64,000 bases of DNA from Desulforapulum autotrophicum (lineage in GTDB: Bacteria > Desulfobacterota > Desulfobacteria > Desulfobacterales > Desulfolunaceae). Below the pieces are notes generated by a model. That model saw nothing but the letters and a program-made list of their open reading frames with translations. It did no database searches and had not been told where the DNA came from. Location of the stretch: the NCBI GenBank assembly GCA_020723285.1, contig DYJE01000001.1, positions 1-64,000 of the forward strand, in the 5' to 3' direction. A program made the position numbers and the translations under genes. This document shows positions 2,452 to 13,585 of this stretch, piece by piece; the first letter of the stretch is position 1; each line of letters opens with the position of its first letter.

Positions 2452-3756
2452 ATGTTCACTGAAAAGACCAGGGTTTCATCGGGGATAAGCACCCTTGACC
2501 GTCTTCTGGGCGGTCTTTTTATCGGAGACAATGTGATCTGGTACGACGATGCGGGAAGTCTGGCCCTCCCATTCTGTTTGAATCTGATCCAGACATCCCA
2601 GGCCCAGAACAAAGCGATCATCTATGTCAGTTTCGACCGCTCCCCGAAAAATCTCCTTGAAATGCTGGGACCACTTGCTCGAAACAATTATCTCACCATT
2701 CTTGATTGTTTCACCCAGGGAAAAGGTGACGGTTCCGAGGTTTTTGAACAATTTTATGAAAAAAACGGAGCTCAGTGGCCATACCAGATCATCAAGGTCA
2801 ACGAACCCTCAAAACCTGAAAAGGTGATGGAAGCCATATACGGAATTCATAAAACCATGGAAGGGGATGTGAGATTTGTCATTGAAAGCCTCACCGGAAT
2901 GCAGGACCTCTGGGGTGGAGAGGAAGACAGTATCCGGAAGTTTTATTCGCATTCCTGTCCCAGGTTGTACGATCTCAACACCATCGCATACTGGATCATT
3001 GAAAAAGGGGCTCACTCCAATCAGCTTAAAGCCCATATCAACCAGATCGCCCAGGTTGCCATCGACCTTTCCATCCAGGGAGAAGAATCTGCCCTTACCA
3101 TTCTCAAAGCCGAGGGCAGAAATCCGGCAACCCAGAACAAACCCAGCTCATTCAATGTAAAAGGCATGACCATTGATTTCGCCGATGACCGTAAAAACGG
3201 AAAACAGATCAACATCGGCATGAGACTCAAAGAACTTCGTAAAAAGCAAGGTGTCACTCAAGCGGAACTTGCCAGACTGGTGGGCGTAACCCCCAGCAAT
3301 ATCTCCCAGGTCGAAAGCAATCTGATCAGCCCTTCGCTGAACGCGCTTTTAAAAATTGCCGAAGCCATGTTTGTTGACATCACCTATTTTTTCCAGGCTG
3401 ACAGAGGAATCGAAACCCGAATCGTATTTCCCTCAGACCATGCAGTGCCCGTTGCGTTCCCCGACCTGCCAAACAAAAGTATTTCCGGCAACCTTCTGAC
3501 ACCCATGGACTTCGAACCCAAGGCTGAACCGTTCATCATCGAAATCCCGCCGAAAACAAAACTCCCTTCCCATTTTTTCGTCCACAAAGGTGAAGAGATG
3601 GGCTACATGCTCAGCGGTAAACTGACCATGACCACTGGCCGCGAAACGTTTACAGCCAAATCCGGTGACGTGATCTATCTAAAACGTGAGATACCTTCCC
3701 AATGGGAAAACACGGGTTCAAATCCGGCAAAAATCCTTTGGATAAAAATCAAGTGA
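2452..3756 (+). CDS. Regulator: KaiC/RecA-like domain + XRE HTH + cupin
   Basis: A 434-residue fusion. Residues 5-225 follow the RecA/KaiC (RAD55/GvpD) fold pattern, with the typical opening SSGISTLDRLLGG. The expected P-loop (GxxxxGK[ST]) is replaced around residues 26-38 by a segment without Gly-Lys-Thr, so ATP hydrolysis is doubtful. Residues 258-314 are a clear XRE/Cro helix-turn-helix (TQAELARLVGVTPSNISQVE). Residues 370-432 are a cupin with H-x-G-E-E and a G-D-V-I-Y motif, as in SutR/PuuR-like small-molecule-responsive repressors. It is probably a DNA-binding sensor. It faces nuoF across a shared terminator and lies beside the redox island, which it may control (inference). AAAGG upstream gives weak support for the ATG. 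Confidence 0.85.
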   Translation: MFTEKTRVSSGISTLDRLLGGLFIGDNVIWYDDAGSLALPFCLNLIQTSQAQNKAIIYVSFDRSPKNLLEMLGPLARNNYLTILDCFTQGKGDGSEVFEQFYEKNGAQWPYQIIKVNEPSKPEKVMEAIYGIHKTMEGDVRFVIESLTGMQDLWGGEEDSIRKFYSHSCPRLYDLNTIAYWIIEKGAHSNQLKAHINQIAQVAIDLSIQGEESALTILKAEGRNPATQNKPSSFNVKGMTIDFADDRKNGKQINIGMRLKELRKKQGVTQAELARLVGVTPSNISQVESNLISPSLNALLKIAEAMFVDITYFFQADRGIETRIVFPSDHAVPVAFPDLPNKSISGNLLTPMDFEPKAEPFIIEIPPKTKLPSHFFVHKGEEMGYMLSGKLTMTTGRETFTAKSGDVIYLKREIPSQWENTGSNPAKILWIKIK

Positions 3757-3827: not shown

Positions 3828-5615
3828 TTAAAAAATCGCGTCAAACTTGCATTTATCGAAACAGCTCATACACTTCACGCATTTGCCCGTGTCGATGACC
3901 GCAACCTCCTTTTTCTGCCAGGTGATGGCGTTTGCCGGACAGGCTTTATAACAGAGCCCGCATTTCTTGCATTTTTCCGGATCGACTTCAAATTTCAACA
4001 AAGCGATACAGCGTTTGGCAGGACAGACTTTGTCTTTGATATGGGCTTCGTATTCATCCCTGAAAAAGCGCAAGGTGGAAAGAACCGGATTGGCCGCAGT
4101 CTGTCCCAGACCGCACAGTGCAGACTGACTGATCACAGCGGACAGGGTTTCAAGGGTTTCGATATCGCCGTCCTCACCTTCCCCGTGACAGATTTTTTCA
4201 AGAAGCTCAAGCATCCGGCGTGTACCTTCACGACAGGGGGTACATTTACCACAGGATTCATCCTGAATGAAATCCATGAAAAAGCGGGCCATATCCACCA
4301 TGCAGGTGTTTTCATCCATGACAATGGCCCCGCCGGACCCCATAATGGCCCCGACTTTGGCGATTTCTTCATAATCGATGGGAGTATCCAGCTTGTGTTC
4401 TGGAACGCAGCCGCCGGAAGGTCCACCCAGCTGAACGGCTTTGAATTTCTTTCCACCGGGTATGCCGCCCCCGATATCGTAAATCAGTTTGCGAATGGGA
4501 AGGCCCATGGGAACTTCGACAAGACCGATGTTGTTCACATCGCCGGAAAGAGCAAACACCTTTGTTCCCTTGCTCTTCTCAGTTCCAATACTGGCATACC
4601 ATTCGCCGCCGTTCAGGATGATCTGGGGAATGTTGGCCAGGGTTTCCACGTTGTTCAAAATGGTGGGTTTATCCCAGAGCCCTTTGAGGGCCGGGAATGG
4701 CGGTCGTGGCCTGGGCATGCCGCGCTTTCCTTCAATGGATCGCATCAGCGCCGTTTCCTCGCCACAGACGAATGCGCCTGCGCCCTGGTAAATATCGATA
4801 TTGAATGAAAAACCGGAATCCAGAATATTCTCGCCCAGAAGGCCGTATTCCTTGGCTTGCCGGATGGCGATTTCAAGGCGTCTTATGGCCAGCTGGTATT
4901 CGGTACGGCAGTATATATAACCCTGCCTTGCATTGATGGCTTTTGCAGCGATGATCATACCTTCGAGAATGGCATGAGGATCGCTTTCTAAAAGGCTGCG
5001 ATCCATAAACGCGCCGGGATCGCCTTCGTCGGCGTTACAGAGCACGAATTTTTCATCTCCGGAACTTGCCGCTGCAAAGGACCATTTCATGCCGGTTGGA
5101 AAACCAGCGCCCCCTCGCCCACGAATCTGTGAAATCTTCACTTGTTCTACGATCTCTTCGGGTGTCATGTCGTTCAGGGCTTTGGCCGCAGCGAAATAAC
5201 CGTCACGGGCAATGTATTCGTCGATGACTTCGGGATCTATGGCTCCCTTATTTCGCATGGCCCTATAAATCTGATTTGAAAAGAACGGGATGTCGTTGAT
5301 GTTGGGAATGGCTTCTTTGGATTTCTGCTCGACAAAAAACAGCTTTTTCACTGGACGGCCTTTGAGAAAGTGTTCTTCGACCAGAAGTGGCACGTCTTCC
5401 ACCTTTAGTTTCTGATAAAAAACGCCCTCGGGCTGGACCAGCATCACAGGCCCCACAGCACAAAATCCGTTACATCCTGTTTCAATGATCTTGATTTCTT
5501 CCGCAAGTCCCTTGGCTTCGAGTTCCTTCTGCAACGCAAGCTCAAATTTCTTGCTTCCGGTGCTGTGGCAGCCAGTACCGCCGCACAGCATCAACTGCAT
5601 TCTGTTTTTACTCAT
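3828..5615 (-). CDS. nuoF: NuoF/HndC-type NADH-binding flavoprotein subunit
   Basis: 595 residues, the long form typical of hydrogenase- or bifurcation-associated NuoF (HndC/HydB). Domains in order: an N-terminal thioredoxin-like [2Fe-2S] domain (C11, C16, C48, C52); the NADH/FMN core with GRGGAGFPTG (166-175) and N-A-D-E-G-D-P-G; an SLBB segment; the NuoF [4Fe-4S] ligands C455, C458, C461 and C501; and a C-terminal two-[4Fe-4S] ferredoxin (C549/552/555/559 and C579/582/585/589). It oxidises NAD(P)H or reduces NAD(P)+, exchanging electrons with NuoE and a partner. It is downstream of nuoE, 105 bp apart. No catalytic hydrogenase or other partner is adjacent, so the final electron acceptor is not shown. 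Confidence 0.95.
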   Translation of the reverse strand: MSKNRMQLMLCGGTGCHSTGSKKFELALQKELEAKGLAEEIKIIETGCNGFCAVGPVMLVQPEGVFYQKLKVEDVPLLVEEHFLKGRPVKKLFFVEQKSKEAIPNINDIPFFSNQIYRAMRNKGAIDPEVIDEYIARDGYFAAAKALNDMTPEEIVEQVKISQIRGRGGAGFPTGMKWSFAAASSGDEKFVLCNADEGDPGAFMDRSLLESDPHAILEGMIIAAKAINARQGYIYCRTEYQLAIRRLEIAIRQAKEYGLLGENILDSGFSFNIDIYQGAGAFVCGEETALMRSIEGKRGMPRPRPPFPALKGLWDKPTILNNVETLANIPQIILNGGEWYASIGTEKSKGTKVFALSGDVNNIGLVEVPMGLPIRKLIYDIGGGIPGGKKFKAVQLGGPSGGCVPEHKLDTPIDYEEIAKVGAIMGSGGAIVMDENTCMVDMARFFMDFIQDESCGKCTPCREGTRRMLELLEKICHGEGEDGDIETLETLSAVISQSALCGLGQTAANPVLSTLRFFRDEYEAHIKDKVCPAKRCIALLKFEVDPEKCKKCGLCYKACPANAITWQKKEVAVIDTGKCVKCMSCFDKCKFDAIF

Positions 5616-5720
5616 GAGTCATCTCCTGCCTTGTATGCAAGGTCAAAGCTTTTATTGCTTCGCCTTTCAGGATAAATGGGAAACTATCGTCTACCGTTAT
5701 CATAGGGACAACGGTATAAT

Positions 5721-6215
5721 TTAATTGTAATTATCCAAGATACCGACCACCTCGTCAGGCTTCAAATTACCGTGAATGTCTTCTTTTACGATCATGACCG
5801 GAGCGAGACCGCAGGCACCGAGGCATCGGACGCCTTCAAGGGAAAACCGACGGTCTGACATGGTTTCGCCTTCCCTGATACCGTGCTTGTTGGTGATGTG
5901 ACTGATAACTTCTTTGATTCCTTTGACATAGCAGGCCGTACCCGTGCAGACTTTGATGATATTGCGTCCTTTGGGTTTGAGAGTAAACAGGGAATAGAAC
6001 GTCGTGACACCAAAAACCTGGCTTGCAGGAAGATTCATGCCTTCGGCGATATGGTCGATGAGTTCGACAGGCAGATATCCCACAATATCCTGGCTCATTC
6101 TGAGAACGCCAATGACAGAGCCGGCGATGTCTTTGTTGGCGTCAATGATCGCGTCGATTTTTTCCCACATCTCATCGGTGATATCGGGATGGCTGGGATA
6201 AGATTTGATGGACAT
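5721..6215 (-). CDS. nuoE: NuoE/HndA-type [2Fe-2S] thioredoxin-like subunit
   Basis: 164 residues, normal length for NuoE/HndA. It has a helical N-terminal bundle and a C-terminal thioredoxin-like [2Fe-2S] domain with ligands C90, C95, C131 and C135 (CTGTAC and CLGAC motifs). It passes electrons to or from the FMN of NuoF. It is the first gene of the minus-strand pair nuoE-nuoF. A GGAGA Shine-Dalgarno lies just upstream of the ATG. Its promoter region is shared with the divergent DRTGG/H-cluster cluster, so the enzyme and the putative sensor are probably co-regulated. Confidence 0.95.
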   Translation of the reverse strand: MSIKSYPSHPDITDEMWEKIDAIIDANKDIAGSVIGVLRMSQDIVGYLPVELIDHIAEGMNLPASQVFGVTTFYSLFTLKPKGRNIIKVCTGTACYVKGIKEVISHITNKHGIREGETMSDRRFSLEGVRCLGACGLAPVMIVKEDIHGNLKPDEVVGILDNYN

Positions 6216-6479
6216 AACTTAATCTCCTGCGGTTAAAGAGGCTCCACCGTTTCTCCTGTATATGCAGGATAGATTGCGGACCTCAGGCCCGGCTCCTTAA
6301 AGGAACCCGTTAAAATGAAAACACCACTCTCGTGATACGTTCACAGACAGAGATAAGCCCATGACACATGGGATTATAACCGACTGAAATTATGTTTAAT
6401 ATTGGCGAAAGAAAAAAAGGTGTATTGCAACGTTCGTCACCTTAAATATTTTTGGTAAAATTCCACAATAATGCCCAAA

Positions 6480-6522
6480 TGTCAATGAATTGATTTAGAG
6501 TTCCCTGTTCAATTCATTGACA
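6480..6522. promoter_or_regulatory. Perfect 14-bp inverted repeat operator
   Basis: TGTCAATGAATTGA (6480-6493) and its exact reverse complement (6509-6522) flank a 15-base spacer. Each arm contains its own smaller palindrome, TCAAT-NN-ATTGA. Each arm also ends in a TTGACA hexamer pointing outward, so one protein bound here would cover the -35 box of both divergent promoters. Confidence 0.65.
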
Positions 6523-6546
6523 GCACCTGAATAAATATTCTATAGA
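6517..6546 (+). promoter_or_regulatory. Sigma-70-type promoter for the DRTGG/H-cluster operon
   Basis: TTGACA (6517-6522), 18 bases, then TATAGA (6541-6546). The -35 hexamer lies in the right arm of the inverted repeat. The leader would be about 80 bases to the first start codon. Confidence 0.55.
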
Positions 6547-6634
6547 TCCAGAGTATGAATTAATTCGTCATTCTTCGTAACAATCCCGATCAAGCCTGAA
6601 TAACAACTCGGATCTCGAAAGGTTGAAAAACAAC

Positions 6635-6988
6635 ATGAAGCTAAGTGAAATCGCACGCATTCTGGAGTCTGAATTTTTAACGGGCGAAAACAAAAAAGAC
6701 GTGGATTTTCATTACTGCAGAGGATGTGACCTGATGAGCGATGTCCTTGCAGCTTTTGCGGATGGAAGCGTTTTTCTTACAGGCCTCGTGACGATACAGG
6801 CTGTGAGAACCGCTTCAATCTCCGGAGCCGGTGCCATTGTCTTTGTCCGAAACAAAAAACCTTCGGCAGATATCGTTGCACTCGCCCGGGAAGAGGACAT
6901 CCCTCTTTTGGTCACACCGTTGACTATGTTCGTATCATGCGGTCGATTATATGAGGGTGGCCTCACCGGAGTAAATGGGAACAGATAA
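6635..6988 (+). CDS. DRTGG-domain protein (first copy)
   Basis: 117 residues from the ATG at 6635, with AAAGG 12 bases upstream. An in-frame TTG at 6623 sits directly on the Shine-Dalgarno and is less likely. The protein matches the small DRTGG domain found beside phosphotransacetylase and in [FeFe]-hydrogenase-associated operons: alternating beta/alpha, a central TGLVTIQAVRTASISGAG-like strand-turn, and a final I-P-L-L-V-T strand. The biochemical role is unknown. It is first in the plus-strand cluster, and a second DRTGG gene follows at 8937, so the pair may form a heterodimeric ligand sensor (inference). Confidence 0.8.
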   Translation: MKLSEIARILESEFLTGENKKDVDFHYCRGCDLMSDVLAAFADGSVFLTGLVTIQAVRTASISGAGAIVFVRNKKPSADIVALAREEDIPLLVTPLTMFVSCGRLYEGGLTGVNGNR

Positions 6989-7125
6989 CATCCGAAATTT
7001 GAACACATGTTACAATACCTGAGAATGAAGCGAATTTATTGTTTGTAACCCTGATTTGAATTATGTAATAATACGCTTTAATCCTTGGGACATATGATTT
7101 ATCCATTTTAAATTCGGAATTCGAG

Positions 7126-7551
7126 ATGCCGGTTATTCATAAAAGCTACCATGTCACGAAAAACGATTTCATCCATGCGGGTGAAGCTTCAATTCACGTT
7201 AAAAATCTTTTAAAATCGTTGAATTACGATTCTGATCTTGTACGTCGTGTGGCTATCTGCGGTTACGAGGCGGAAATGAATCTGGTCATGCATGGGGGTG
7301 ACGGTGAACTTTCCGTGGATGTGAGCCAGAGCAAGGTTGTCATCGAAGTCACGGATAAAGGACCGGGTATTGCCGATGTGGAACTGGCCATGCAGGAAGG
7401 GTATTCCACAGCCAAGGATGAATATCGGGAAATGGGTTTTGGTGCGGGAATGGGTTTGCCGAACATAAAGAAGAATTCCGATGAAATGACCATCTCATCG
7501 GAACCGGGCAGCGGAACCCACGTCACCATGGTCTTTTTTTGTAAAGGTTGA
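7126..7551 (+). CDS. RsbW-like ATP-binding protein (anti-sigma/HATPase)
   Basis: 141 residues comprising a single GHKL ATPase fold. It shows an N box (E-A-E-M-N-L-V-M-H near residue 50), a G1 box DKGPGI and a G2 region GFGAGMGLPNIKK. It lacks a histidine-phosphorylation domain, as in RsbW/SpoIIAB serine kinases. Such a protein beside a DRTGG gene and an H-cluster protein is a recurrent arrangement in clostridial hydrogenase loci. It probably phosphorylates or sequesters a partner in a redox-signalling relay. Its stop codon lies 5 bp before the next gene's ATG, and AAAGG for that gene lies inside its 3' end, suggesting coupling. Confidence 0.85.
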   Translation: MPVIHKSYHVTKNDFIHAGEASIHVKNLLKSLNYDSDLVRRVAICGYEAEMNLVMHGGDGELSVDVSQSKVVIEVTDKGPGIADVELAMQEGYSTAKDEYREMGFGAGMGLPNIKKNSDEMTISSEPGSGTHVTMVFFCKG

Positions 7552-7556
7552 CGTGT

Positions 7557-8924
7557 ATGAACGAAGCGAACGGATCTCCCAGACACTGTTTTATCCATTT
7601 TGAACAATCCATGTGTTCAGGTTGCGGTCTCTGTGTTAAACGATGCCCCACGAGGGCAATACGGGTCAGAAACGGCAAGGCTACCATTAAAAATTCACTT
7701 TGCATCGGATGCGGCGAGTGCATAAGAATCTGTGAAAGTGGTGCCATAACGGCATCCACTTCGGAGCTCAACTCTCTGAACAGTGATAAAATCACCATTG
7801 CTCTCGTATCACCGGTTCTGTATTCCCAGTTTCCCGGAGTTCTGCCCAGGGATGTACTCCAGGGGCTGAAGAATATGGGGTTCACTCATGCAGTGGACAT
7901 GTCTTACTATTTTGAAATGTTCCAGTGGGCCACTGCGGAATACATTTCACGCAACAGAAAAACAGGCGAATCACCCTGGCCCCTGATCTCCCCTGTCTGC
8001 CCTGTTGTCCTGCGTTTGATTGTATGCAGGTTTCCAAGCCTTCTTCCCCATGTCCATCCGATCATGCGTCCTGTTGCTTTGATGGCCAGGGACGTTATGA
8101 CCCAGTTCAAAGTCCATTACGGTGTGGATGATCAGGATATCGTTCTTTATTACATCAACCCCTGTCCGAGCAAAATGGGCATTCCCAAAAAAGAACTTGA
8201 AACAGCCGGGACATCAGCCGACCTTCATTCAACAGGCGCCCTTGGCATCAACGATATCTACGGAGAATTATCCCGTCAGATCAAACATTTTGAAAAAAAC
8301 GACAAAATCCCCTTCGCCCAGGCCGGCTTTGAATTCGAGCAATGCACTTCAGGGGGCGGTCTCTTGTGGAGCATGACCGGGGGTGAAGCTGAAGCGACAG
8401 GACTCGACAAAATCCTTGCTGTGGCAGGTCTTAACGAAACAATCACATACTTAGAGAAAATCGAACTGGGATTGTTCAACGACCTTGAATACATTGAATT
8501 CCGTACATGCAGGGAGGGATGCATTGGCGGAGCTCTCAACGCCATCGACAAATATCTGGCAAAAAGTGCGGCTCTTAAAATGGCGAAAACGTTAGGTGTT
8601 GGAACACGTCTTAATCGTGAACGTGTTCTGCGCCTTTATGACAACAACTGGTTCTTTCCGAAAACAACACCCCAGGCACTCAAAACCATGGGCATTCAAA
8701 AAGAAAGAACCTTTTCATTCGATGAACTCCGAATGATCGAAAAAATCGTCGGGATCATCGACGGAAAAAACTGCGGTGCCTGCGGATCTCCCGACTGCCG
8801 CACCTTTGCAGAGGATCTAATTCGGGAAGAAGCCGCCCCGGATGACTGCGTTTATCTAAAAATCCGGGGAATAACCATGGATGATATCCTGATGAGGGTA
8901 AAACCAGAACAGGACAAAGATTGA
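7557..8924 (+). CDS. Ferredoxin-H-cluster protein, putative sensory [FeFe]-hydrogenase-like
   Basis: 455 residues from ATG 7557, with AAAGG 9 bases upstream; the TTG at 7548 is in frame but unsupported. Order: two [4Fe-4S] ferredoxin motifs (C20/23/26/30, C49/52/55/59), an H-cluster-like domain, then a separate four-Cys FeS domain (C406, C409, C414, C431) like that of corrinoid/acetyl-CoA proteins. The four cysteines that hold the H-cluster cubane are present: SPVCP (C148), NPCPSK (C203) and CREGC (C318, C322). The neighbouring proton-relay Cys of catalytic enzymes (TSCCP) is Val here. This points to a sensor or redox-relay protein of the group C/HfsB kind rather than a hydrogen-producing enzyme. 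It is embedded among signalling genes. Confidence 0.85.
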   Translation: MNEANGSPRHCFIHFEQSMCSGCGLCVKRCPTRAIRVRNGKATIKNSLCIGCGECIRICESGAITASTSELNSLNSDKITIALVSPVLYSQFPGVLPRDVLQGLKNMGFTHAVDMSYYFEMFQWATAEYISRNRKTGESPWPLISPVCPVVLRLIVCRFPSLLPHVHPIMRPVALMARDVMTQFKVHYGVDDQDIVLYYINPCPSKMGIPKKELETAGTSADLHSTGALGINDIYGELSRQIKHFEKNDKIPFAQAGFEFEQCTSGGGLLWSMTGGEAEATGLDKILAVAGLNETITYLEKIELGLFNDLEYIEFRTCREGCIGGALNAIDKYLAKSAALKMAKTLGVGTRLNRERVLRLYDNNWFFPKTTPQALKTMGIQKERTFSFDELRMIEKIVGIIDGKNCGACGSPDCRTFAEDLIREEAAPDDCVYLKIRGITMDDILMRVKPEQDKD

Positions 8925-8936
8925 CGGGAGTTTGCC

Positions 8937-9269
8937 ATGAAGGTGAAAGAACTTGCTGAAAAATTTGATTTGAAAGTGGTTGCAGGGCACCGGGGTCTTG
9001 ACAGAGATGTTAAAGGCGGTTATTCCGGCGATCTCCTGAGCGAAATCATGGGGAATGCGGGACTTGGCTGCGTCTGGCTCACGGTCCAGGGGCATCAGAA
9101 CATTGTAGCCGTCGCTGTTTTAAGGGAAATGGCCGCTATCGTAATCACTGGAGGAGGCTCACCCTCCCCGGAAACCATCGACAAGGCAGATTCCGAAAAT
9201 ATTCCCCTTCTCACCTACAAAGGTTCTGCTTTCGAACTGGCTGGCAGAATTTTCCCGGAATTCCCATAA
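8937..9269 (+). CDS. DRTGG-domain protein (second copy)
   Basis: 110 residues with a GGGAG ribosome site 7 bases before the ATG. The DRTGG-like fold is visible from the core (GYSGDLLSEIMGNAGLG, then W-L-T-V-Q-G-H-Q-N-I-V-A-V-A) and the closing I-P-L-L-T-Y strand. It aligns by eye with the first DRTGG protein but differs along its length, so it is not a recent duplicate. It starts 12 bp after the H-cluster protein and is very probably in the same operon. Confidence 0.85.
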   Translation: MKVKELAEKFDLKVVAGHRGLDRDVKGGYSGDLLSEIMGNAGLGCVWLTVQGHQNIVAVAVLREMAAIVITGGGSPSPETIDKADSENIPLLTYKGSAFELAGRIFPEFP

Positions 9270-9287
9270 CCTCATCGGGAGTATATT

Positions 9288-10043
9288 GTGGATGACAACG
9301 TCACAGATCTTCACCTGTACCGTGCCGACCTGCACATCCACACCTGCCTTTCCCCCTGTGGTGACTGGGACATGACACCCAGAGCCGTAACAGAACTTGC
9401 AAAGGAAAGACGTCTCGATATCATTGCGGTTACCGATCACAACTCCGCAGAAAACGCCGGAGCTGCATTGGAAAGAGGACGTGCACTCAATATCAGCGTC
9501 CTGCCCGGCATGGAAATCTGTTCCATGGAAGAAGTCCATCTTGTGGCTCTGTTCGACACTATAACTCAAGCTCTTGCCATGCAGGAATTTGTTTACAACA
9601 GACTTCAGGGCGAAAACAACCCTGACGTTTTTGGTTACCAGGTGGTGGCCAATGCCGAGGATGAGGTATTGGATCAGAACCCACGGCTACTCATCGGTGC
9701 GGTTAAGGTGGACCTCAACACTCTGGTTACCAAGATTCATGAGCTTGATGGTCTCGCCATTGCAGCCCATATCGATAAAAACGTTTACAGCATCACCAGC
9801 CAGCTTGGATTCATTCCTCCAGATCTCCCTCTGGATGCTGTGGAGGTTTCTTACCGTTCACGCCCTGAAGAGGCAGGACCCAGATTGCTTATGGGTCTAA
9901 AGATTCCATGCATCACCTCATCGGATGCGCATTTCACAGGAGAAATCGGAAGGGTATCCACTAAATTTCTCCTCAAAACCCCTTGCATTCAAGAAATAAA
10001 ATGGGCTCTTGAAGGTAAAAAAGGGCGAAAAATAGTTCGCTGA
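9288..10043 (+). CDS. PHP-domain metal-dependent phosphoesterase
   Basis: 251 residues from a GTG start with CGGGAG 7 bases upstream. The PHP (polymerase and histidinol phosphatase) metal ligands are visible in order: H16-x-H18 (DLHIHT), D50-H51 (VTDH), E76 (PGMEI), H84, then AAHID and SSDAH toward the C-terminus. It should hydrolyse a phosphoester or nucleotide in a two- or three-metal site; the substrate is unknown. PHP genes recur in DRTGG/H-cluster gene sets, so it may process a signalling nucleotide or phosphoprotein of this pathway (inference). Confidence 0.9.
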   Translation: MDDNVTDLHLYRADLHIHTCLSPCGDWDMTPRAVTELAKERRLDIIAVTDHNSAENAGAALERGRALNISVLPGMEICSMEEVHLVALFDTITQALAMQEFVYNRLQGENNPDVFGYQVVANAEDEVLDQNPRLLIGAVKVDLNTLVTKIHELDGLAIAAHIDKNVYSITSQLGFIPPDLPLDAVEVSYRSRPEEAGPRLLMGLKIPCITSSDAHFTGEIGRVSTKFLLKTPCIQEIKWALEGKKGRKIVR

Positions 10044-10066
10044 ATTATAAAAAAAAGGAAAGTACC

Positions 10067-10375
10067 ATGCCCCTGTCAACAGAAGTGTTTGTCATGGTCA
10101 TATTCATCGCAGGCTATCCGTTTTTTTATGTCATCCTCCATAATATGAAGATGAAAGGACGTCTTTGTTTTCTCTGGGCCTATGGTTTTCTTACCTTGTC
10201 CAACATCGCCACCGTGATCGAAGAATTCTGGTGGAATGCTTTTTTCAATGGGCTTGAGCACCTGTTCATAACCACAGGGTCCATTATGATGCTTATTGCC
10301 GTGACCGCTTTGACTGAAAGAGACGATCGACAGGGAATGCGTGGGGCTAACAAAAGTACCAAAGGTGGCTCATGA
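10067..10375 (+). CDS. Small membrane protein, paralogue of the kinase sensor domain
   Basis: 102 residues with about three hydrophobic segments (6-26, 37-55, 67-88) and a hydrophilic tail. Its middle, YGFLTLSN followed by E and an F-x-x-x-E-H pattern, matches the N-terminal membrane region of the kinase encoded immediately downstream (YGFITLSN). The stop overlaps that kinase's start by 4 bp (ATGA). It may form the other half of a membrane sensor with the kinase. AAAGGAAAG lies upstream of the ATG. Confidence 0.75.
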   Translation: MPLSTEVFVMVIFIAGYPFFYVILHNMKMKGRLCFLWAYGFLTLSNIATVIEEFWWNAFFNGLEHLFITTGSIMMLIAVTALTERDDRQGMRGANKSTKGGS

Positions 10376-12534
10376 ACCCAACCGTCATATTAAGCATCGT
10401 ATCCGCGGTTGTTTTCACTGCAACCCTGATCGTTCTTTTGGTCAGGAAAAAAGACGTGTCGTTAAGCACCGATGTTTTCGTTCCCCTTTCCCTCTCCATC
10501 GTACTCTACGGATTTATCACCTTATCCAATTCTTTAGAACATTCCGGAATAACGGATTTTTTCGATCCAATAGAAGATATCGCCGAAATTGTTTTCACTC
10601 TGATGTATCTGTTTTTTGTTAACAACTGGCGTAAAGATCGATCTGAAACACGATTCAGAGATCTCTTCAGATTCGCGCCCATATCCCTTGCCGAAGTGAC
10701 AACAACGGGCAGTATCATCCGAATTAACGATAACATGATAAAGAAAATGGATTTGTTTTTTGATATCAAAAACCATGAATATCTTACCCTTGACGATCTT
10801 CTTAGTCACACTCATAAAGATGAACACCGGGAAACGATGACAATGTCCTGGAAGAAATCATTGGAGTTGTCTTATAAAACAGGAAGTTCCATCCCCCCTT
10901 CCGAGCTGGAGATAACAATCAAAGACGGAACGAAACGGACCTTGATTGTTGGAGCCAACATCATCGATGAAAATTATTTATTCAGTATGATCGACATCAC
11001 AGAACAAAAGCAGACCGAGCAGTCGTTGAGAGAAAGCGAAACACGTTTCAAAGCTCTTCACAACGCCTCTTTCGGAGGCATTACCATCCACGACAAAGGC
11101 ATTATCCTTGAGTGCAATCAAGGTCTATCTGATATCACAGGATATACCAGCCAGGAACTGATTGGCATGAACGGGCTGCTGCTCATCTCGGAAAAAACAC
11201 GAGACATGGTCATGAAGAACATTCTGGCAGGTTATGAAAAACCATACGAAGCCATTGGATTAAAAAAAAACGGTGAAGAATTCCCCCTCCGGCTTGAGGC
11301 TCGAAACATCCCTTACAAAGGAAAAAACGTCAGAACCGTTGAATTCAGAGACATCACCGAAGCTAAAAATGCTGAAGCAGAAAAGGAGAAACTGAAAAGT
11401 CAGCTGCTCCAGGCCCAGAAGATTGAATCCTTAGGCCGCCTTGCCGGTGGTGTGGCTCACGATTTCAATAACATGCTCAGCGTCATCCTGGGTTATACTG
11501 AACTGACTTTGGAAAAAATTGACGAAAACAACCCGATCCGAAAAGACTTGAACGAAGTGCACAGAGCCGCCAAACGGTCCGCGGATATCACAAGGCAGCT
11601 TCTGGCATTCGCGCGTCAGCAGACTGTCGCCCCCAAAATCCTCGATTTGAACGACACCATTGAAAGCATGCTCAAAATGCTGAGACGGCTCATCGGTGAA
11701 GATATCGATCTTGTATGGAACCCTGGAACCACTTTGTGGCCTGTCCTGATGGACCCGTCCCAGGTTGATCAGATCATGGCCAATTTGTGTGTTAATTCAA
11801 GGGATGCCATAAACGGAGTTGGAAAAATCACGATAGAAACTCAAAACATACACTTTGACAACGAAAAACCGGATTGCCAACCTGATTCCGTTTGCGGTGA
11901 CTACGTCCAGCTTACGGTCAGCGACAATGGCAAGGGTATGACACCCGAGATCATAGAAAATCTGTTCGAACCGTTTTTCACCACGAAAGATATCAACAAA
12001 GGAACGGGTCTCGGACTTGCAACAGTCTATGGTATTGTTAAGCAGAACAAAGGATTCATAAGGGTTAACAGTGAACTGTCCTTAGGGGCGGTATTCAGAA
12101 TCTGTCTCCCTCGTCATTATGGTGATGTGGTGGCTCCGGTCAAAACCGTCAAGGCTGGAGACACCTGTGGAAACGAAACAATCCTTCTGGTGGAAGATGA
12201 ACCGTCTATCCTTCATATGACAACCACAATGTTAAAAAAACTGGGGTACACCGTACTTTATGCCAGCACGGCTTCCGATGCCATAAAACTATCTAAAAAT
12301 CATGGGTCGTCTATAGATCTTGTGATGACGGACGTGATCATGCCCGAAATGAACGGCCGCGAATTGGTGGAGATTCTTCAAACGGAATACCCGAACATCA
12401 AACGCTTGTTCATGTCCGGATATACGGCGGATGTCATTTCAAAGCACGGAGTGCTTGATGAGGGGGTTGAATTCATCCAGAAACCCTTTACCATGCATGA
12501 CCTCGCAGCAGGTGTACGAAGAGCACTTGATTGA
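10372..12534 (+). CDS. Membrane hybrid histidine kinase (PAS-PAS-HisKA-HATPase-REC)
   Basis: 720 residues. Two or three membrane segments lie in residues 1-85, followed by PAS-like domains at about 95-210 and 222-332. HisKA carries H363 (GGVAHDFNN). The HATPase has an N box, DNGKGM and GTGLGLA. A C-terminal receiver has D654 ([10 protein letters not shown]). The first PAS is divergent; the second has the usual GYTSQEL ending. The gene overlaps the preceding small membrane protein by 4 bp and belongs to the redox cluster. It probably passes membrane or redox-state information into it. No separate DNA-binding response regulator is present in the cluster, so the output is unknown. Confidence 0.9.
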
Positions 12535-12566
12535 GCCAGACAACATGTCAATAAACGGGAGACAAC

Positions 12567-13112
12567 ATGAAGGAACTGTCACTTCACATTCTCGATCTTG
12601 CCGAAAACGGTATTACGGCCGGTGCTTCGCTCATCCGGATTCACGTCAACGAAATTCTTTCAGAAAACACCCTGACCATACAAATACAGGACAACGGCAA
12701 TGGAATTCCTCTGGCCATGATTGAAAACATTACCGATCCATTCGTCACCACCCGCACAACACGCCGGGTGGGCATGGGGCTTTCTCTTTTCAAAGCCGCA
12801 GCGGAAAGATGCAACGGTCGATTTGAAATCACTTCCGAACAAGGAAAAGGGACATTGACAAATGGTTCGTTTCAGCACGATCATATCGACCGGGCACCTT
12901 TAGGAGATATGCCCTCCACCCTCGTTTCTTTGATGGCGGGTTATCCTGAAATTGACATTGAGTATACACATCTGTATGATGGCTTGAATTTTACATTCGA
13001 TACGCGGGAAATCAGGGCCGAACTCGACGGTATCCCCTTGAACGAACCCGCAGTTCTTCAGCATTTGAAAAAAGCGATTAAACAAGAGCTTGATCATATC
13101 AAAGGTTCATGA
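12567..13112 (+). CDS. Stand-alone HATPase protein of the redox cluster
   Basis: 181 residues. An N-terminal GHKL ATPase fold has L-A-E-N-G-I in the N-box position, DNGNGI (G1), a T-T-R-T-T-R-R loop and GMGLS (G2). It has no HisKA or receiver. The C-terminal 80 residues are not similar to anything I recognise. This type of ATPase accompanies NuoE/HndB-like genes in hydrogenase clusters of Firmicutes. GGGAGA lies 7 bases upstream of the ATG and the gap after the hybrid kinase is 32 bp, so they are probably cotranscribed. Confidence 0.8.
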   Translation: MKELSLHILDLAENGITAGASLIRIHVNEILSENTLTIQIQDNGNGIPLAMIENITDPFVTTRTTRRVGMGLSLFKAAAERCNGRFEITSEQGKGTLTNGSFQHDHIDRAPLGDMPSTLVSLMAGYPEIDIEYTHLYDGLNFTFDTREIRAELDGIPLNEPAVLQHLKKAIKQELDHIKGS

Positions 13113-13216
13113 TCAGAGATCCTTGAATACGACTGTCCGTATAAATATGTGGCCGTTCATGTTGGAGTGACGGTTTGTGAGGGATGCGGACAGCTAACAG
13201 ATGAATGGAGGATAAG

Positions 13217-13585
13217 ATGGGAAAGTTAAGCGTAAGTGATTTAAAGAACCTGAAGGAAAAAGTTTCAAAGGATATGTCTCTGCGGGAAGGAAAATCAAAA
13301 ATTCTCGTGACAGTCCACATGGGAACCTGTGGAATTGCATCCGGAGCCCGTGAAGTCATGGACGCCCTGATGAAAGAAATGGAAGAAGCGGACAGACAGG
13401 ATATCCGTGTCATGGCTGCCGGCTGCCTTGGCATGTGCAGCAGTGAACCCAACGTGACGGTGGAGATCGAAGGACAACCCCCCATTGCCTATCAGTTCAT
13501 GGATGCGAACAAAATGCGTCAGGTTTTCAAACGTCATGTATTAAAAGGTGAAGTTCAAACCGATTTTGCCCTTGCAAAGATGTGA
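13217..13585 (+). CDS. HndB-like thioredoxin-fold ferredoxin subunit
   Basis: 122 residues from ATG 13217, with GGAGG 5 bases upstream; an ATG at 13205 overlaps that Shine-Dalgarno. It resembles HndB of NADP-reducing hydrogenase: MGTCGIASGAREV in the first cluster loop and AAGCLGMC in the second. Only three cysteines (C38, C70, C74) sit at ligand positions instead of the four in NuoE. A standard [2Fe-2S] cluster is therefore uncertain, although this is usual for HndB relatives. It is the last gene of the cluster and would be expected to pair with NuoE/NuoF encoded on the other strand. Confidence 0.85.
   Translation: MGKLSVSDLKNLKEKVSKDMSLREGKSKILVTVHMGTCGIASGAREVMDALMKEMEEADRQDIRVMAAGCLGMCSSEPNVTVEIEGQPPIAYQFMDANKMRQVFKRHVLKGEVQTDFALAKM

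Follow-up and report, generated by a model that had tools for sequence, protein, structure and literature searches.

Within the window, by which we mean the whole 64-kb stretch of DNA analyzed here, genes for a NuoE-like 2Fe-2S protein and a NuoF-like flavoprotein lie divergently from a gene encoding a DRTGG-domain protein and a series of genes for HATPase, hydrogenase-like, PHP, histidine kinase, and 2Fe-2S proteins (Table 1). The region between nuoE and the first DRTGG gene holds a 14-bp inverted repeat, two outward-facing TTGACA hexamers, and a 37-bp block on the nuoE side. We compared this arrangement with the best 80 of 110 related loci, in 41 of which nuoF is visible. The order DRTGG-HATPase-hydrogenase-like-DRTGG-PHP-HATPase, without the histidine kinase, runs uninterrupted in 53 of the best 80 of 110, and many of the remaining loci are interrupted by contig ends. 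The 53 loci span Desulfobacterales, Aminicenantes, and other groups, and the order is often accompanied by nuoE and nuoF. The divergent nuoE/DRTGG layout was found in all eight genomes compared of the window's family and, with gaps of 241 to 6,391 bases, at 26 of the best 80 of 110 loci. In some relatives (L053 and L054), nuoE and nuoF are separated by a second DRTGG gene in the same orientation. A limited look at the open-access subset of the literature returned little on the DRTGG/HATPase/hydrogenase-like cluster and no paper on a regulator of it, and the passages of PMC6288185 examined contain nothing on NuoE/F regulation.

Table 1. Positions of the features discussed in the text, numbered from the first nucleotide of the window
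Feature	Position	Strand	Remark
Perfect 15-bp hairpin, 1-nt loop	70-100		Near the start of the window
XRE/cupin protein	2452-3756		HTH_3 and cupin domains
nuoF-like flavoprotein	3828-5615	-
nuoE-like 2Fe-2S thioredoxin-like protein	5721-6215	-
Predicted nuoE leader	6216-6450		About 235 nt
Extended -10, nuoE promoter	6457-6465	-	TGG (6465-6463) and AATTTT (6462-6457); footprint upstream of nuoE genes
37-bp block	6460-6496	-	Conserved nuoE promoter and probable regulator site; plus-strand form ATTCCACAATAANNNNCAAATGTCAATGAATTGATTT; 33 specified bases
Left arm	6480-6493	+	TGTCAATGAATTGA; contains the nuoE -35 (6485-6480, minus strand) and the palindrome TCAATGAATTGA (6482-6493)
-35 element TTGACA, nuoE promoter	6480-6485	-	Footprint upstream of nuoE genes
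Right arm	6509-6522	+	TCAATTCATTGACA; contains the palindrome TCAATTCATTGA (6509-6520) and the DRTGG -35 (6517-6522)
-35 element TTGACA, DRTGG-operon promoter	6517-6522	+	Footprint in relatives
-10 element TATAGA, DRTGG-operon promoter	6541-6546	+	18-nt spacer
DRTGG-domain protein	6635-6988	+	Start at 6635 suits homologues better than TTG at 6623
HATPase, Fe-hydrogenase-C-terminal-like protein, DRTGG, PHP, small protein and histidine kinase (10067-12534, by eye), HATPase, 2Fe-2S protein	7126-13585	+

The two arms of the repeat are complementary at 14 of 14 positions and lie 15 nt apart, as originally predicted, and each holds the smaller palindrome TCAAT-NN-ATTGA, of which these are the sole two exact copies in the 64-kb window. 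When the window was dinucleotide-shuffled 200 times, arms of at least 14 bp with a loop of at most 30 nt appeared once. At arm lengths of at least 11 bp, the window contains four pairs including the 14-bp repeat; the other three have loops of 1 to 7 nt and look like hairpins or terminators. The hairpin near the start of the window is probably a terminator. The 14-bp repeat is real and statistically nonrandom, and in kind it is ordinary, being a divergent promoter pair. In each arm, the -35 hexamer plus the preceding A (ATTGACA) makes up seven of the 14 bp, so that two identical outward -35 hexamers account for half of the repeat. The other seven read TCAATTC in the promoter sense; the chance of seven extra matches in the right arm is about 2 in 10,000 (an estimate at 30% per site), and such a run is unlikely enough by chance that -35 symmetry alone is insufficient to explain the perfect repeat. 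The repeat-bearing strand is predicted to form a hairpin as DNA (-12.4 kcal/mol, z of -6.1), and we give a cruciform little weight because of the 15-nt loop and the position upstream of both predicted starts. A structured RNA was also considered and rejected, since both arms lie upstream of the predicted starts and Rfam returned no matches in 5600-7200 at E values up to 1.

On the plus strand, the right-hand TTGACA is indeed followed at 18 nt by TATAGA, a pair with 10 of 12 consensus matches that belongs to the canonical sigma-70 type (16- to 18-nt spacer, TATAAT-like -10). TTGACA followed at 17 or 18 nt by TATnnn occurs in 18/18 divergent intergenic regions shorter than 900 bp, a set that includes the window, leaves out longer regions, and accepts TTGACA as the sole -35; the spacer is 18 nt in the window and 17 nt in the 17 other regions. 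With TTGAC[AT] as the -35 and a good -10, matches were found in 25 of the 27 divergent DRTGG upstreams (100 shuffles: mean 0.6, maximum 3), where regions longer than 900 bp were kept and the last 300 to 350 nt were counted, and in 42 of 79 DRTGG upstreams overall (100 shuffles: mean 1.7, maximum 5). Six loci of the genus Desulfoluna (L089, L090, L093, L099, L110, and L111) carry TTTCCATTGACAG and then AATGAAATATA at this promoter, with CAATG in five of the six; together they form an imperfect inverted repeat between the -35 and the -10 that is absent from the window and is possibly a different operator at the same plus-strand promoter.

The minus-strand TTGACA facing nuoE was likewise confirmed, with a 17-nt spacer before AATTTT. 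This -10 had been called weak, and the hexamer has three of six consensus matches, but AATTTT is directly preceded by TGG and with it forms an extended -10 that recurs upstream of nuoE. A TGn motif compensates for a poor -10 hexamer. The complete element, TTGACA-N14-TGG-AATTTT, has TGn before the -10 and 17-nt spacing from the -35, as expected of the extended -10 class. We searched the upstream regions of 33 nuoE genes (window included), excluding hits that begin after residue 12 and upstreams shorter than 150 nt. TTGAC[AT] was present in 24 (200 shuffles: mean 5.3, maximum 10), TTGAC[AT] with TGn at 17 nt in 20 (mean 0.3, maximum 3), and the stricter form with TRTGn in 18 (mean 0.02, maximum 1). 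The 20 aligned promoters give CA-TTGACa-TTTT....ttaTTg-TGa-AATAtt, in which lower case marks 50 to 70% agreement. The 13 upstreams without TTGAC[AT]-17-TGn include all six from Desulfoluna, in which the plus-strand promoter is present. As a general promoter class, TTGACWTTT-N9-TRTG found no support in three genomes (2, 2, and 3 matches versus 2, 2, and 1 in controls); one match in each genome is the one at nuoE. The predicted nuoE leader is similar in length in G001 but spans only some 90 nt in L087. The leader sequence shows poor conservation, and Rfam returned no match to it.

Footprints in relatives on both sides strongly support two divergent promoters, in agreement with the original prediction, which had also described them as symmetrical. 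That description found no support in a comparison across nine genes used as an internal control (window outside the sets; hits beginning after residue 15 and upstreams shorter than 150 nt excluded). TGn at 17 nt was found in 19/33 nuoE upstreams, 0/78 DRTGG upstreams, and 0 to 1 upstream for each of the seven other cluster genes, and TATnnn at 17 nt was found in 0/33, 34/78, and 0 to 3 for each, respectively. This clean split indicates two promoter classes, extended -10 and canonical -10, masked by sequence symmetry. All of these counts come from related loci and hence are not independent. A consensus scanner listed neither of the window's promoters, as AATTTT matches at only three of six positions and TATAGA lacks the T at position 6. 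Back-to-back -35 elements were also considered as a common promoter architecture: a search of 58 genomes, the window's included, returned 107 TGTCAAT-N15-43-ATTGACA pairs, with at least one pair in 39 genomes, against 13 in the reversed control. We dropped this idea because the reversed control is unfair; in the window's genome, two pairs were found and 2.1 are expected from composition. Arms measured in 12 other back-to-back pairs were 7 to 10 bp, shorter than the 14 bp in the window.

The original prediction had named a lack of conservation of the repeat in orthologous regions as grounds for refuting it. By this measure the repeat as such fails, since its perfect form was seen in the window's genome only, although the left arm is identical in three genomes. 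Conservation on the left extends over the 37-bp block, ATTCCACAATAAnnnnCAAATGTCAATGAATTGATTT, which in the two closest loci, L087 (genome G132, judged by coordinates to be the same genome as G389) and L088 (genome G001), is identical at all 33 specified positions. Allowing up to three mismatches, the block was found in 3 of 389 genomes of the order (window's included), with one match each at this same locus and none in the control, and a profile search with the left block returned nothing convincing outside these three genomes (next best E value, 0.47). Agreement at fourfold-degenerate sites of six cluster genes is only 229/594 and 248/595 (39 to 42%) in the two relatives, so the identity of the block reflects strong constraint. 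The right arm, by comparison, matches at 14/14 positions in the window (TCAATTCATTGACA), 12/14 in G001 (TCTATTTATTGACA), and 10/14 in G132/L087 (TTCTTTGATTGACA), with 15, 39, and 14 nt, respectively, between the arms. ATTGACA is the sole run common to all three right arms, which indicates that the rest of the repeat is constrained on the nuoE side alone; on the DRTGG side, the seven nonhexamer base pairs match perfectly in the window's genome only. The G132 locus belongs to a different family from the window and yet shares the block, and its nuoE is the closest (87% identity, versus 75% in the same-family G001). For genes other than nuoE, G001 is at least as close as G132: identities to the window in G132 versus G001 are 91 versus 93% for nuoF and 81 versus 84% for the HATPase. 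The shared block and the closeness of nuoE hint at transfer of the cluster between families.

We consider it likely, from the sequence patterns described above, that the region carries back-to-back divergent promoters, an extended -10 promoter that would transcribe nuoEF from the minus strand and a canonical promoter that would transcribe the DRTGG/HATPase/hydrogenase-like operon from the plus strand. RNA polymerase footprints extend to about -55. Since the two TTGACA hexamers are 31 bp apart, polymerases at the two promoters would overlap and crowd each other, and the promoters would probably compete. The conservation of the 37-bp block suggests that it probably also binds a regulator of nuoE. 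A protein on this left block would occupy the nuoE -35 and spacer and so affect nuoE first, and any effect on the DRTGG promoter would come via crowding or via a second, weaker site on the right arm. One regulator may be shared by both promoters.

The original prediction went further, proposing that one protein switches the enzyme pair and the putative sensor together. In that case, a dimeric regulator would bind TCAAT-NN-ATTGA in both arms, cover both -35 elements, and co-switch nuoEF and the sensor operon. The exact palindrome in each arm, the rarity of the repeat by chance (1/200 shuffles), the perfect preservation of the left arm in three genomes, and the retention of 12/14 right-arm positions in G001 are consistent with such an operator, but the right arm keeps just 10/14 in G132/L087 and the gap of 14, 15, or 39 nt shows that phasing is not kept. 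The window's genome contains 10 exact TCAATNNATTGA sites, two of them here, where composition predicts about 23. Five of the other eight lie within reading frames and three outside, and the sole similarity to a cluster gene near any of them is a general histidine kinase match at one; likewise, five of the seven other exact TGTCAATNNATTGA sites in G001 and the genome of L087 lie within reading frames. A genomewide palindrome regulon was rejected: the reversed control gave 0, but a first-order model of window composition predicts about 23 sites for TCAATNNATTGA and 0.9 for its reverse. With one mismatch allowed, TGTCAATNNATTGA exceeds its reversed control (31 versus 4, 96 versus 11, and 57 versus 3), and we are inclined to read this excess in the same way, as no enrichment. 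Taken together, we find a shared symmetrical operator doubtful. A somewhat better case, though still short of an even one, can be made that mutation produced the perfect right arm, either by two substitutions from a G001-like arm or by a template switch that copied the left arm onto an imperfect right arm, a class of mutation described in PMC8604942 and PMC7202029. The series of 10, 12, and 14 of 14 matches in three genomes around a fixed -35 core is consistent with such an origin, but the genomes compared include no second member of the window's genus by which to set the polarity, and selection for function is equally able to give a perfect arm. Template switching as the source was set aside, as two substitutions from the G001 arm are enough and require no special mechanism.

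Candidates for the regulator itself fared less well. The neighboring XRE/cupin protein, put forward in the original prediction, combines HTH_3 and cupin domains with a gene adjacent in the window, and it has full-length orthologues elsewhere in the two other block-bearing genomes, G001 (83%) and G132 (64%). It is nevertheless unlinked to nuoEF in relatives, being found beside these genes at 0/14 loci and in none of the best 80 of 110 loci, 35 of which have at least 500 bases beyond nuoF. Promoters of 12 orthologues contain no close copy of an arm (best match at 4 to 6 mismatches, compared with 3 in the window), and relatives of the protein are also found in genomes without the block, all of which makes it a quite improbable regulator of the repeat. 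About 250 N-terminal residues of this protein have no Pfam match, and matches over nearly its full length occur in 11 of 15 relatives searched, at varying places. Least probable of all is Rex or another NADH-responsive repressor acting through the conserved nuoE block. Genes of the nuoE type are plausible Rex targets, and TTGTGGAATTTTA within the block resembles a Rex half-site, but none of the three block-bearing genomes returned the Rex DNA-binding domain (PF06971), in a search whose control was positive in 7 of 14 named genomes (6 above the cut-off), and the best upstream match to a TTGTGA-N6-TCACAA-like site has 4 mismatches in the window and 5 and 6 in two relatives. The absence of PF06971 from all three genomes with the block largely refutes Rex, and boxes of the FNR, HcpR, and CRP types had no consistent match across 18 intergenic regions. 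A more elaborate proposal is that an undescribed redox regulator dedicated to this locus, possibly part of the DRTGG/HATPase/hydrogenase-like module, uses the 37-bp block as its operator, and that this operator was mirror-duplicated in this lineage onto the sensor promoter, giving an inverse response of the sensor operon and NuoEF through one site; we regard this as unlikely.

Returning to the back-to-back promoters, these results assign conserved promoters of two different classes to a widespread redox-sensing cluster that is little described in the literature found, and they illustrate that back-to-back -35 elements can account for half of an inverted repeat between divergent genes. The footprint further yields an extended -10 promoter that recurs upstream of nuoE, and a conserved 37-bp block that merits a search for its regulator and may serve as a short bait in it. 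Gene clusters of electron-bifurcating (HydABC-type) hydrogenases with accessory signaling genes offer one comparison. The window resembles them in having NuoE/NuoF-like proteins beside a divergent hydrogenase-like protein, and it differs in that its genome (G000) has no A6-type [FeFe] hydrogenase above the family cut-off. The overlapping Pr/Pc promoters of plasmid pLS20 (PMC4207663) are a divergent sigma-70 promoter pair and another parallel: there, too, two opposed promoters near enough to interfere separate an effector operon from a regulatory gene. The pLS20 pair has a proven regulator and operators, whereas the pair in the window consists of predicted back-to-back promoters whose -35 elements are separated by 31 bp. 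The nuoE promoter also resembles the extended -10 promoters discussed under "mix and match" in PMC2613000, having TGn before a poor -10 hexamer (AATTTT, three of six matches); unlike that type, it additionally retains a -35 close to consensus, followed by a conserved T-run.
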